From Chamaelirium japonicum (taxonomy: Eukaryota > Streptophyta > Magnoliopsida > Liliales > Melanthiaceae), in NCBI GenBank assembly GCA_947650365.1, contig OX393549.1, positions 19,325,532 through 19,389,531 on the forward strand: DNA of 64,000 nucleotides, in the 5' to 3' direction. This document shows, piece by piece, positions 54,649 through 60,600 of this stretch. The notes beneath the pieces are model-generated. The model was not told where the DNA came from, did not search any database, and saw nothing but the letters and a program-made list of their open reading frames with translations. Position 1 is the stretch's first letter. The number at the start of each line of letters is the position of its first letter. Position numbers and translations under genes: made by a program.

Positions 54649-57600
54649 CTAGTGAGTCAAAACAACTTCACAACTCTCATCCCCCTCCTCACTCATGATC
54701 TCTACTAGATCACCCTTGTCAGCATCCGTGCTGATCTTGTTCAGGTCAAGGCACCTCATGCTTGCAGCTTCGACCGTCAAGCCGTCTATTTCCACGTGAA
54801 ATCGCTCCAACCGCACCCCATCGATGCTGAACGCCTGCAATTCATCGCCCAACCTCGACGAATCCCCCCACGGATGCTTGTGCCCTAATGTCTCCGAAGA
54901 GTGTAGCACCGCCTCTAGCTCCCGCGCCACCTGTCTCATCGTGGGTCGGTCCTTGGGTGACTTCACCACGCATCGGAGGCCGAGTAGCCCCATCTTCAGC
55001 ATCACCTCCATGTTGCATGCTTCCAGCAGCAGATTAGCATCCAGGATCTCTTCCACTATGCCGCGCTCCAGGCTAGGCCTTGCCTGTAGTCCATGTGAAG
55101 GAAACCAAGTATGGAAAGCTTGTCACTTCACTATGGCTTCAGTATTGCAAAATGAGAACCTGCAGCACATAAGCCTACCCAATCGATGACATGATACTGA
55201 GTCTGAGGCCTCGAGGTGTCGACGGCAGGCCTTGCAGCCACAAGCTGCAGGAGTATGACTCCGAAGCTATAGACATCGCTGAAAGGAGTGAGGTGGAAGC
55301 TGGAGCAGTAGGCGGGGTCGAGGTAGCCTGGTGTCCCTTTGATCTGGCTACTGACATGCGAGGCGTCGCCCATGGGGCCCGTCTTCACCAGCCCGAAATC
55401 CGAGACCTTGGCTTCGAGCCCGTCCCCCAGAAGGATGTTGCTGGGCTTGATGTCCCTGTGGATGATGCTAGGTTGGACACCTTCGTGGAGGTGAGCTATG
55501 CCTGCGACGAGAATACGCGAATTTTCGCTTTAATTACTTTCTATGCAAACATTTTGATGTCGTGCACGTAATTTGGGGAATGTTGCTTCATTTAATCTTC
55601 TTTCTTATCATTTGTTCTATGGAGATGAATGCAATTTTCTGTATTAAATCTTTCATTCTACCCTAATTTTCTAGACTTTCATATTCTAGAGGAAATTTGA
55701 AGAGTTACCCCACGCTAATCAAACAGGGTATAGGCCTCATTACCCGCCAAGTTTTTTGGCATCTCTCTCTCTCTCTCTCTCTCTCTCTCTCTCTCTCTCT
55801 CTCTCTCTCTCTTTCTCTCTCTCTCTCTCTCTCCCTCTCCCGTGCGCGCGCGAGCAAAAGTTCATTGGTAAGGCTTTTGGCACCAATCTTAGAGGGTTGA
55901 TGTCAGGTTGAGTACATTAGATAAGAAAAACTCCTATTTTAATTTGGAGAACTTAGTGAACGGTCCAAAGCAAGAGATCAGTTTTGGCCAAAGGGCAGAG
56001 GACGAAAACACCTCTCACTGTGCTTCAAATTTCCATTTCAATGCCACTACTTTCTAAACTAAAACGAATCATAAACCTAAGATCTATATGCCATGGGATG
56101 AACCTATACCTGATCCTAAACATAATCTGAATCAAACCTAACTCTGTTGCCGTACGCCTCTTGTCTCCGCTGCTCGTGCCGTTGAGAGTAAGGAGGAGGC
56201 GTTGGGGGGTGGGAGGAGGCATATGCCGAGGTCGTCATGGGCGTTGAGGACGACAGAGTAGAGAAGGGCATTTTCGGATTTGTGAAATAATTTTGTGACC
56301 TTCCCGTAAAGGGATCTTATGAGTGTCCTGTTCATCAAACCAATCTGTTGTCTGGGACCTAACACCCATTTCCCCTATTAACTTTCCACAGTCCTCATCA
56401 TCCAGCATGATAAGGTAAGACTTGGACAATGACGACGATGGTGGTATTTATTTGTTTATGGAACCAACCTTTTGCGGCACCGATGGCTATGTTTAGTCTT
56501 TGCCTCCATGTTAAGGTCTTCCTTCTTTTTCCTGCAATATATTTAAGTTGGCTCTTTTTAGTATTAAACATGTGGAAGCTAAGGGTTGGCTCAAGAGTAA
56601 ATCAGAAAGGTTGAGGCACTCTCACCAGCAATGTATTCAAGTAGAGAGCCATGGGGGACATATTCATAAACCAATACCTTCTGACCTGCATGGTGGGAAT
56701 AGTAAGGGAGAGAGAAAATCTGAAGCTATGAATATATCATGGTGGAACTATAGAGTATGTTCTATTTCATAAATTTTAGACAAAACAGGGCATCAAAGGT
56801 TCTGCCTTGTATACTGTTACGAAGAGAGGGGGAGAGAGAATAGGATTGGGGAGAAAATCTCCTTGTATTATCTCATTGAACTCACTTGCATTACATAAGA
56901 CTACCTCTCTTTATATAGAGAGAGTACGCACACCATTATGTTATCCACAACCGAGGTGGGACTAATAGAATACTAACACACTACATCTAATACCCTCCCG
57001 TCAAACTGATGTAAGGTATAAACCGACATCAGTTTGCTTAATAAAAGAAAGGAGAAAGAAAGAAAAAAAAATTACATCAAATAACCCTTTTTTTTTATGC
57101 TGTAAAGTAAAGATAGTGACAGGGCGACCTGCAAGCAAGTCGTCCTGGAAACCCGATTGACCTGTAAGCAGGACAACCGGGGGAACCCGGCCAACCTGTA
57201 AACAGGTCAACCGGGAGAATTGGCAATGATCACTAAGGATCGGAGCGGAGGAAGCCGACGGTGATGGAAGTCGACAGTAAAGGGGGCCGAAAGGAGAGAG
57301 AGCGGCTAAGAAAAGATGTGAATGCATGAGACCTCTTAAGAGGTAAGCACCCGGCCGAAGCAAATACTTGACACCTCTTAGAAGATCTCAATCATCACAG
57401 ACAAAGAAGAGAGAAAAGAGGAAGAGTCGTAGCTCTGATAGGGTCACATGACCAAGGAAAGGAAGAGGATCCGAAAGCCGGCGCAAGAATGACCGGAACG
57501 AGAGTGGATCCAAAAGCCGGCACAAGATAAGTGTGACCGGAACAAGAAAGGATCCAAAAGCCGACACAAAACAACTGTGATCGGAACTAGAGAGGATCAA

Positions 57601-60600
57601 AAGCCGGCACAAGACAAGTATGACCGGAACGAGAAAAGATCCAAAAGCTGGCACAAAACAAGTGTGACCGGAACTAAAGAGGATCTAAAAGCCGGCACAA
57701 GACAAGTGTGACCGGAACGAGAAAGGATCCAAACGCCGGCACAAAACAAGTGTGACCGAAACTAAAAAGGATCTAAAAGCCGGCACAAGACAAGTGTGAC
57801 CGGAACGAGAAAGGATCCAAAAGCCGGCACAAAACAAGTGTGACCGGAACTAAAGATGATCTAAAAGCCGGCACAAGACAAGTGTGACCGGAACGAGAAA
57901 GTATCCAAAAGCCAGCACAAAACAAGTGTGACCGGAACTAGAGAGGATCAAATGGTGCAAGACGGATTGGTAGGGCGCAGAGCGCAAAAATACCAAGGCG
58001 CAAGGGCACAGAGCGGGGCGATGGGGCAGGCGAATCGACTAAGCGCAAGGGCATAGGGTGCAAGGCGGGCTGACAAAGCTCAAGGCGCAGCGGACGGCGG
58101 GCATGGGACGCCAAGGCGGCCGGATCAAACGGCTTAGGGCTCCGACAGCTATTAAGACCGATGGGCGCGGGCTGGAGCCGAAGGAGGAGCGGTAGCTCGA
58201 GCGCAGGGCTGCAGAGAGAGCGCAACAGATCAAGCGCAAGGCGAAAATGCGAAGAGCCGGTCATGTACAAAAGGGCCGGATCGGGTGGCGAGATACTATG
58301 AGCACAGGATCCGGGCGGCGCAAAGGGCCAGGTGAAAAGAGGGTCGGATTGTGTGCAGAGGGCCGTGTCGGGTCGGATGCAGCAAGACGCAAAGCACAGT
58401 CGTCCGATGCAGGATGGATGGCTGTGATCATTTATATAGAGAGAGAACTCGACCGCACGGCGCAGTCACCGGCTCAAAGCAAGATCGATGGGCGCGGGCT
58501 GGAGCGGAAGGATGAGCGGTAGCTTGAGCGCAGGGCCCCAAAGAGAGTAATAGGTACCGGTGCGGGATACGGATGTGGTGCGAGAAACTGAAGTGGTGCG
58601 GGAAACTGAAGGTGCGGGATAGTACCGAACGGATCGGACACCGGTACGGGATAAGTGGGCGGTGCGGGATACGTGCGGGATAGTACCGAACGAAACGGGA
58701 TAGATACCACAATAATAGATACCGCAGAGAAGCAGATAAGGAAAGAGAGAGAGAATAGAGGAGAGAACGAGAGATCCGGAGACGGGATCGGCGCGAGGTA
58801 GAGAAGATCGGGATGGGGTGCGCCTCGTGTGCAACCTGGACACGAGAGAGGAGCGTCGGTCGGCGGCCGGATTAACCGACGCGGGGAGCAGGAGGCTGGC
58901 TCGGTGACGGAGCAGGTGGCCGACGGCCGACACAGGGACCTCCCCTGCCAGATCTGGAGCGGATGCCGGCCGGTGGGGAGGAACCACTTGGTCGTGCACT
59001 GCACCAGGAACCTCCCCTGCCCGATCATCTCCTCGGCTTTCTCCTTCTCCAACCCGGAGAAGCAACGGCACGTCCGGACCGTCCGAACCAGAAACAGGAC
59101 GGCGTCGAACTTCGGTAGGGAGTGGAGGTCGAGGTGCTGGACGACGCGAAAGATCATGCGGCCGAGCTCCTAATCGTAGCAGTCGACGGTGTGGGAGACC
59201 TCGGCGATCGGTAGGGGGATGCGGTTCTGTCGCATGACGAGGTAGGAGCAGGCGCCGATGAGGACGGGGAACCAGTCACCATCTCCGAACTCGCCGTCGG
59301 TGACGCTGGAGACCATGGCGGTGACCTCGGCGGCACGAGGGACGGAGAGGCGGACGACGGTGGTGATGTGGGAGATGAGGGCGTTGGCGTGGTAAGCCTT
59401 GCGCTATCGGTAGCCGAAATCGCCGACGGAGTGGATGAGGGTGCCCTCCGGCCAGCCGTCGACCGCGAAGGCCTAGGCCTGGAAGTTGTCGCAGCCGTGC
59501 TCGAGGCCGCAGGATTCGCAGACTTTGGTGCCGGAGGCGGGGTCGACGATCAAGCTGCCATCGCCGCAGCTCCTGCAGAGCGCCATCGCGGCGGTGTCGA
59601 GAGAGAGAGAGCGAGATGGGAAAAAACAATTTTTATTTTTTTTCCCGGCCTCCTCGATGTTGTCGATGACGACCGAGGAGGCCGAGGCCGGAGAGGAGAG
59701 CGTCGAACCCTAGACCAAGAGGGTTGGCTCTGATACCATGTTACGAAGAGAGGGGGAGAGAGAATAGGATTGGAGAGAAAATCTCCTTGTATTATCTCAT
59801 TGAACTCACTTGCATTACATAAGACTACCTCTCTTTATATAGAGAGAGTACGCACACCATTATCTTACCACAACCGAGGTGGGACTAATAGAATACTAAC
59901 ACACTACATCTAATATATACTAAGACACATGTTTTCGAAAAATTAAGCATCTTGAATTTCATATTGCTTACTACTTCAAACCAATATATATATATATATA
60001 TATATATATATATATATATATATATATATATATATATATATATATATATATATATATATATATATATATATATATATATATATATATATATATATATATA
60101 TATAGGGGCATGCTATAATGCGGCATGTGGTACGTGCGGCACTGTACCATAGCCGTCTGATGCAAGTGCATCGCATGCACCGCTACGTGCATCAGACGGC
60201 TGCTGTACAGTGCCGCACTTACCGCTGCCGCATTATAGCATGCCCCTATATATATATATATATATATATATATATATATATATATATATATATATATATA
60301 TATATATATATATATATATATATATATATATATATATATATATATTAAGGGTTATATAGTTTTCAAAGGAATTGATTATTGCACATTTTAAGCTGCTCGA
60401 CAGTTGAGCTTCTTCAATAGTCGGAACATGAGAGACCGATCACCCTCATTCAGTACCTTTAGGATCAATTGTCTAATCTTGATGAGGAGGAGAAGTGCCT
60501 ACCTCTCAACCTGCTGGATGAGAACACCATTCTTGATATAGCTTCGGTTATCGGCTTCTCCATTAAGGGGAAAGGCTCAGGGTCTTTCCTACCACAGATC

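Follow-up and report, generated by a model that had tools for sequence, protein, structure and literature searches.

Short-LTR retroelements of Chamaelirium japonicum carry fragments of different host genes in one slot

The uptake of host genes by LTR elements has mostly been inferred from scattered cases. The maize element Bs1 is described as an LTR element holding pieces of three host genes (PMC13317346), and gene-fragment TRIMs, soybean GmaRetroS15 among them, are described as small noncoding elements of 1172-1449 bp with a 5-bp TSD and exon-only fragments of up to three host genes per element (PMC4717578). Rosaceae AACA3 and AACA4 TRIMs, at 2.1-2.7 kb with LTRs of 203-244 bp and atypical AA..CA ends, have a possible origin in the copia Ale lineage according to PMC5659011. 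As reported in PMC2774510, maize has 425 intact LTR retrotransposons with gene fragments, which trace to 189 or more independent captures and belong to 81 families, so repeated capture inside one family is already known.

The window that we analysed, a 64-kb stretch of the C. japonicum genome, holds two elements, copies A and B, whose likeness to Bs1 had been pointed out in a sequence-only reading. That comparison is apt, so the capture principle itself was already known: the kind is that of Bs1 and gene-carrying TRIMs, and what is new is many cargoes in one slot together with an antisense spliced cargo. Bs1, as presented in PMC13317346, is one element with one capture set, whereas the family here shows 16-20 middle groups. 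It resembles the gene-fragment TRIMs of PMC4717578 in consisting of small LTR elements with 5-bp TSDs, and differs from them, as they are described there, in its length of 2318-3584 bp, leader hairpin, 44-bp array and repeatedly used slot. Its TA...CA ends are those of tomato TARE1 and differ from the AACA ends, and the passages of PMC5659011 on AACA3/4 and TARE1 leave gene capture unmentioned. Having approximately 18 middle groups, surviving donors for several of them and five identical-LTR members in one family and one genome makes capture joints, orientation and splicing comparable under a single set of ends.

Two insertions with shared ends

Both copies read in sense on the minus strand, which places the 5' LTR on the right; neither this orientation nor the antisense cargos described below appeared in the sequence-only reading. 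The features of copy B are:

56815-59915, minus strand: whole element, a non-autonomous LTR retrotransposon read on the minus strand
59739-59915, minus strand: 5' LTR, in sense 5'-TATTAG...CGTAACA-3', with a TATATAAA box
59606-59738, minus strand: leader
59726-59738, minus strand: PBS TGGTATCAGAGCC, with no gap to the 5' LTR
59647-59683, minus strand: leader hairpin, present in both A and B
58956-59616, minus strand: PTF2/BRP5-like cargo in sense, consisting of the 5' UTR and the first ~205 codons
59584-59586, minus strand: start codon of the cargo
58811-58970, minus strand: post-cargo segment, weakly collinear with the middle of A
58726-58813, minus strand: CT-rich tract, common to many members, bounding the cargo slot downstream
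56993-58479, minus strand: kept 3' half, containing the array
57490-57949, minus strand: 44-bp (88-bp) tandem array
56993-57002, minus strand: polypurine tract GACGGGAGGG
56815-56992, minus strand: 3' LTR
56810-56814 and 59916-59920, no strand: TSD TATAC

Those of copy A are:

29581-48549, minus strand: full span, with a nested element inside; copy A proper is ~2.58 kb
48374-48549, minus strand: 5' LTR
29576-29580 and 48550-48554: TSD GAGCA
31853-31982, minus strand: leader, with the PBS at 31970-31982
31072-31215, minus strand: bHLH exon fragment, the cargo, in sense
30255-30498, minus strand: 44-bp array
29581-29754, minus strand: 3' LTR
31984-48369, no strand: nested Gypsy-type LTR element with TSD ACCAT, inserted where the 5' LTR of copy A meets its PBS

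Alignment and the TSDs bear out the coordinates, short LTRs, leader, 3' half and 44-bp array first read from the sequence. The LTRs (174-178 bp, 5'-TATTAG...AACA-3') are 92.5-93.6% identical between copies, and the pair within each copy shows 2 differences in 177 aligned sites (B) or 4 in 173 (A). Leaders agree at 119 of 129 aligned sites and 3' halves at 422 of 454 after the array and 137 of 144 before it; positions 58094-58316 of the 3' half of B are absent in A and found in many other members. The whole leader folds with z-scores of -4.46 (B) and -2.93 (A), with equally stable shuffles in 0 of 200 for each, and its hairpin is a possible packaging or dimerisation signal.

The 19-kb span of copy A is inflated by the nested 16.4-kb element, whose ~2-kb LTRs are 95.6% identical, which encodes a Gypsy-type reverse transcriptase and RNase H, and which lies outside the short-LTR family. 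The sequence-only reading missed this insertion. In A and B proper, Pfam finds no gag-pol domain in 45 stop-to-stop ORFs of at least 60 aa. The two middles had been called unrelated: their cargos do differ, but part of the middle is common to both, as ~160 bp after the cargo of B match the middle of A weakly and in the same order (a score reached by 2-7 of 1000 dinucleotide shuffles). This match suggests one common, fast-changing middle in which the two cargos occupy separate positions.

Direct LTRs, a PBS, a polypurine tract and a short TSD identify an LTR retrotransposon, although the ends are TA...CA in place of the canonical TG...CA. The LTRs fall within the TRIM range of ~100-250 bp, are shorter than those of Bs1 (~177 bp against ~302 bp), and differ from the LTRs of several kb that define a LARD. 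The PBS, which we take to be of the initiator-Met type, adjoins a short LTR as in the Ale lineage of Ty1/copia, a PBS type that is not exclusive to Ale; A and B showed no pol, and no partner element was found in which an Ale-type copia reverse transcriptase could be read. The Rfam search returned 0 matches at gathering score within the window, hence no hammerhead ribozyme, which argues against a retrozyme. Like TRIMs, A and B lack coding capacity for gag-pol by the Pfam search; their family exceeds the limit of about 1 kb under which TRIMs were first defined (PMC4717578), a name still used for some larger elements (PMC5659011).

Members across the host genome

In the host genome (1.52 Gb), first-look searches yielded 1268 LTR and 791 leader candidates, of which 40 were scored in each. 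Including A and B, 38 members were extracted (35 by distinct flanks), a non-random sample that combines the best-ranked hits with those of cargo searches, with 7 fetched loci dropped by a leader/3'-half filter. Their middles fall into 18 groups when reciprocal coverage is set to 50%, into 16 groups at 30% and into 20 at 70%. Among the 23 complete members (2318-3584 bp; LTRs of 173-180 aligned sites), 18 have a perfect 5-bp TSD, five have identical LTRs, all begin the LTR with TATTAG, and 22 end it with ACA (ATA in the remaining one).

The outer flank is common to three pairs of members: L034 and L036, which are identical and probably represent one insertion twice in the assembly, L012 and L013, at 97% identity, and a tandem pair in L057. 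Such pairs affect member counts and leave middle-group counts unchanged. Our search found no autonomous partner; the 5-kb LTR-pair candidate, L030, resembles a duplication, with the same flank following each LTR. Scanning viral contigs for the PBS and leader gave no match.

The sequence-only reading had proposed a gene-capturing family with swapped cargo, to be supported by members with different middles and contradicted by one middle throughout or by decayed pol. The collection upholds this proposal: middles differ, no one middle runs throughout, A and B hold no pol remnants, and eight groups contain host-gene sequence.

Host-gene cargos and donor loci

The host gene in the slot varies among members, with donors elsewhere in the genome, as in Bs1-like elements. 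Host sequence in the eight groups, named by Pfam match or donor locus, derives from nine gene families. Both cargo assignments made from the sequence proved sound: the PTF2-like piece of copy B has a donor on C9 (93.8% identity over 661 bp) and the bHLH-like piece of copy A a donor on C3 (94.4% over 144 bp). The cargo of B shows GC of.60/.44/.90 by codon position (0 of 5000 shuffles), three TAG stops and a Pfam zinc ribbon at 7.5e-5, under the Pfam cut-off (22.3 of 29 bits, with X at the stops); the bHLH donor exon matches PF22754 at 1.2e-4, also under its cut-off. Other cargos match SRF-TF (2.6e-25), legume lectin (8.1e-30), kinase (5.6e-11), DUF1005 (6.9e-30), mitochondrial carrier (1.7e-12), ANTH (7.3e-10) and cystatin (1.1e-19). 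Two genes occur together in L049 (kinase, presumably akin to CIPKs, and cystatin) and in L019 and L020 (ANTH and bHLH), whereas the account of maize captures in PMC2774510 reports no multi-gene elements.

A TRIM-like internal-deletion derivative, in which the divergent middle is decayed element sequence and the likeness to host genes arises by chance, would fit the part of the middle common across groups and the ten of 18 groups with no securely named cargo. However, matching loci lie elsewhere at 91-97% DNA identity, which refutes this account for PTF2, bHLH and cystatin; the two loci read widely, PTF2 at C9:62218972 (3.6 kb) and bHLH at C3:45767125 (3.1 kb), have no family sequence around them; Pfam E-values reach down to 8.1e-30; and A and B lack a gag-pol domain. 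We therefore regard it as very improbable. We attach practically no probability to the reverse relation, in which the apparent donors are copies spilled from elements. The reads on which it could lean are short, ~1.5 kb each side for PTF2 and bHLH and stretches of 0.2-0.8 kb for cystatin and kinase, but the intact 505-aa frame of the PTF2 donor extends far beyond the captured ~205 codons, the bHLH coding frame continues on both sides of the fragment, and the cystatin donor has introns.

Several further assignments were tried. The L043 cargo may be flotillin-like, with no support from Pfam, and a tubulin-like piece in L055 reaches only E 0.038. Against the PDB, phmmer gave the read-through B cargo weak TFIIB/TFIIIB matches, under TRIM7 noise, and the 43-aa bHLH piece nothing meaningful (one match, E 8.8); a 65-aa stretch with this piece matched only DUF3459 (0.032) in Pfam. 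An AlphaFold model of the B cargo was too poor for use (mean pLDDT 37.9).

Splicing, orientation and the route of capture

Cargos occur in both orientations, at least one is spliced, and one cargo can be found in several members. The antisense cystatin cargo of L049 consists of three joined exons of a locus on C3 (727 bases read). The two introns that separate them there, one of 18.96 kb (GTAAAC...TGACAG) and one of 102 bp (GTCTGC...ATGAAG), are of the GT-AG type when read in antisense to the element and are absent from the cargo, which shows RNA-level capture for cystatin. Spliced junctions were seen in the cystatin cargo only. The rice and Arabidopsis PTF2 genes have a single exon according to PMC10671200, so copy B alone does not inform on splicing, and the bHLH cargo is likewise uninformative. 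The neighbouring L049 kinase piece lacks 402 bp of internal sequence not bounded by GT-AG, and GT-AG is also missing at the joints of the L043 cargo, whose three pieces had been considered a splicing product; thus not all joints are splice joints.

These joints fit DNA-level capture, in which double-strand-break repair or nested insertion brings host fragments into the elements and retrotransposition of the chimeras follows. DNA joining also yields antisense freely, and seven of the nine named cargos are antisense (two are sense). Set against this are the loss of two cystatin introns, one of ~19 kb, at exact splice borders and the start of cargo near one leader point in different middle groups, and we judge this route unlikely.

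We consider it highly probable instead that the LTR family of A and B is large and non-autonomous, and that DNA derived from host mRNA enters its slot while reverse transcription is under way. Judging from the anatomy, the fixed parts (LTR promoter, PBS, hairpin leader, 3' array region and polypurine tract) would suffice for transcription, packaging and priming, with proteins presumably supplied in trans. Reverse transcriptase would jump between the element and a co-packaged host mRNA or its cDNA, placing cargo between the leader and the CT-rich tract. A sense cargo would arise by a switch onto mRNA in minus-strand synthesis, and an antisense cargo by a switch onto first-strand cDNA, onto mRNA in plus-strand synthesis, or by joining of cDNA pieces. 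The mostly antisense orientation is not predicted by the simplest copy-choice model.

A stronger version, which we hold to be possible but doubtful, is a dedicated gene-shuttling family, the LTR-retrotransposon counterpart of Pack-MULEs, in which spliced host mRNAs enter in either orientation, by active template switching, a slot made up of the fixed hairpin leader, the CT tract and the 3' array, and antisense cargos give antisense RNA against their donors. More generally, regulatory-gene fragments captured in antisense may become a source of silencing or of novel chimeric genes.

Once formed, a chimera that retains the two ends may go on being copied and found a sub-lineage. Copy B has more stops, three, than its own age can account for (P = 1.6e-4, or 0.006 with LTR divergence set to its upper bound), and the PTF2 cargo is found in eight members (seven by distinct flanks) besides the donor; we count both observations as support for the propagation of chimeras.

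Structure of copies A and B

Copies A and B of this non-autonomous short-LTR retrotransposon family each carry two near-identical LTRs, which differ at 4 of 173 sites in A and 2 of 177 sites in B:

29581-48549, minus strand: copy A, perfect 5-bp TSD GAGCA
56815-59915, minus strand: copy B, perfect 5-bp TSD TATAC

Read on the minus strand, the PBS TGGTATCAGAGCC, which we take to be of the plant initiator-Met type, directly adjoins the LTR, and the polypurine tract GACGGGAGGG lies just ahead of B's other LTR; the sense strand is therefore the minus strand. The leader (~130 bp) forms a strong hairpin fold in B (z = -4.46) and in A (z = -2.93), with 0 of 200 shuffles equally stable for either one, and the 44-bp array sits within the 3' half. 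The family LTR starts with TATTAG and terminates in AACA, a TA..CA form also reported from tomato TARE1 (PMC5659011). In agreement with the sequence-only reading, which saw no gag-pol, none of the 45 ORFs (at least 60 aa) of A and B matches a gag or pol family in Pfam, the top match among them being a TFIIB zinc ribbon (7.5e-5).

The LTR/PBS border of A is split by a 16.4-kb Gypsy-type element (TSD ACCAT) with ~2-kb LTRs and Pfam matches to RT and RNase H; minus this nested element, A measures ~2.58 kb. By LTR divergence (84 differences in 1905 sites, K 0.046, versus K 0.0235 for A), the nested element is seemingly older than its host copy, an impossible order that we tentatively put down to sampling error, A having only four differences. 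The nested element also holds a plant mobile domain (PMD) frame at 43077-45065, on the strand opposite to pol (Pfam E 2.4e-8 and 4.7e-5, each below cut-off).

Family members across the host genome

The 1.52-Gb host genome yielded 1268 first-look LTR candidates and 791 first-look leader candidates, 40 of each being scored. We processed 51 loci (L009-L059) of 59, of which 37 contained 38 members possessing both the leader and the 3' half, A and B counted. The 14 left out comprised five repeat reads (L033, L040, L041, L042, L048), two donors (L010, L035) and seven loci without leader or 3' half at our cut-offs (L011, L017, L018, L021, L030, L052, L053). Since members were drawn from top LTR hits, top leader hits and cargo hits for PTF2 and bHLH, the share of a type among them does not give its frequency. 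Among the 37 of 38 members with flanks, three pairs had common outer flanks (L034/L036, L012/L013 and the two tandem members of L057), which leaves about 35 distinct insertions. L034 and L036, on C16 and C9, have outer flanks identical over 150 bp and probably represent a single insertion that was assembled twice; the flanks of L012 and L013 are 97% alike.

Complete members (n = 23), 18 with a perfect 5-bp TSD and five with identical LTRs, spanned 2518-3584 bp, save for one of them that at 2318 bp misses part of the 3' half. The middles were grouped after trimming to the stretch ahead of the CT-rich tract, or entire in L043, L049 and L058, where this tract was not found. A threshold of 50% reciprocal coverage sorted them into 18 groups, one of 30% into 16 and one of 70% into 20; members with different cargo were the outcome that the sequence-only reading had named as support.

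Three loci showed compound arrangements. L057:165-6063 (C10) is a tandem member pair with a common middle LTR (LTR-internal-LTR-internal-LTR), and L023:1037-6201 (C3) is a cluster of partial members whose LTRs abut arrays directly, an arrangement that suggests recombination between members. L030:2375-7598 has two LTRs ~5 kb apart; the same flank follows each, making an autonomous element less likely than local duplication.

Cargos, donors and capture

Named cargo occurred in 8 of 18 middle groups, including the PTF2 and bHLH groups, and eight groups were unnamed. PTF2 and bHLH are in sense orientation; the seven other named cargos, all from Pfam, are antisense:

L028, antisense: SRF-TF/MADS
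L029, antisense: legume lectin
L049, antisense: kinase and cystatin
L056 (tested; frame common to L059), antisense: DUF1005
L058, antisense: mitochondrial carrier
L020 (tested; frame common to L019), antisense: ANTH, besides part of the bHLH piece in both loci

Tentatively, the L055 cargo is tubulin-like (0.038) and that of L043, judged by eye, flotillin-like.

The PTF2-like piece noticed in B and the bHLH-like piece in A were both traced to donor loci. PTF2 sequence occurred at nine places, eight within members (seven by distinct flanks; one with partial cargo) and one donor, C9:62218972, which has an intact 505-aa frame and, over the 3.6 kb that were read, is free of family sequence. The first 298 aa of this frame match a BRF2-like cyclin model (Pfam, 2.1e-6); their matches to the TFIIB-repeat and zinc-ribbon models fall short of Pfam cut-offs. 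B's cargo corresponds to the donor's 5' UTR plus ~205 codons at 93.8%, with its 5' joint inside a CT repeat present alike in the donor 5' UTR and at the leader end. Over 214 codons this cargo has the GC profile of coding sequence,.60/.44/.90 at the three codon positions (0 of 5000 shuffles). Of the twelve places with the bHLH piece, eleven belong to family sequence; the remaining one, C3:45767125, is a donor, and its longer exon matches a plant bHLH ACT-like model (Pfam, 1.2e-4, below cut-off). The 43-codon piece of A, picked after its translation was seen, gave.72/.44/.93 by codon position (0 of 5000 shuffles). The A and B middles had been considered unrelated; their cargos do differ, but ~160 bp behind B's cargo show a weak collinear match to A's middle (equalled by 2-7 of 1000 shuffles), so the middles are not wholly unrelated.

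B's cargo carries three stops, more than expected from B's own age (P = 1.6e-4; 0.006 at the upper bound), and therefore aged in earlier copies, with which further PTF2-bearing members are consistent. The full 720 bases of the lectin cargo and at least 765 bases of the MADS cargo each occurred at four places including the query; the further places may lie in members.

The cystatin cargo of L049 matches three pieces of one C3 locus (96-97%; 727 bases of the locus read). Its joints fit two GT...AG introns, 18.96 kb and 102 bp long, when the strand opposite to the element's sense is read; a spliced mRNA was therefore captured and inserted backwards. The adjoining kinase fragment, for which a C1 locus is the probable donor (831 bases read), has lost 402 bp internally, with no splice signals at the break; such signals were likewise absent from the joints of the L043 pieces. 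Both fit internal reverse transcriptase jumps, with DNA events as a possible alternative.

The family combines constant ends with changing cargo, donors, both orientations, copying-on and, in one case, splicing. Gag-pol would be supplied in trans by a partner, and capture would take place in the course of reverse transcription, antisense cargo calling for a template switch to cDNA or, in plus-strand synthesis, to mRNA, or else for cDNA joining. Judged by titles and abstract starts, mostly outside subscription papers, we found no published family that takes up many different cargos, spliced antisense ones among them, in such a slot; the present family may already be described elsewhere.

Other features of the window

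Three further regions were noted:

6244-18146, minus strand: another Gypsy-type region, containing pieces of gag and RNase H
25071-27479: uninterrupted 802-aa frame matching RSN1_7TM and PHM7_cyt
56500-56700, minus strand: receptor-kinase-like pieces near copy B

The first has a 23/45-bp GCGAGCT array close to either end, and its long plus-strand frame (7600-8988) had no Pfam match. The second, presumably an OSCA/CSC1-like channel, is probably a host gene. Joined, the receptor-kinase-like pieces gave E 0.0026, below cut-off; one of 55 minus-strand ORFs flanking B matched a kinase at 3.7e-19, and B may lie inside or beside a kinase gene.
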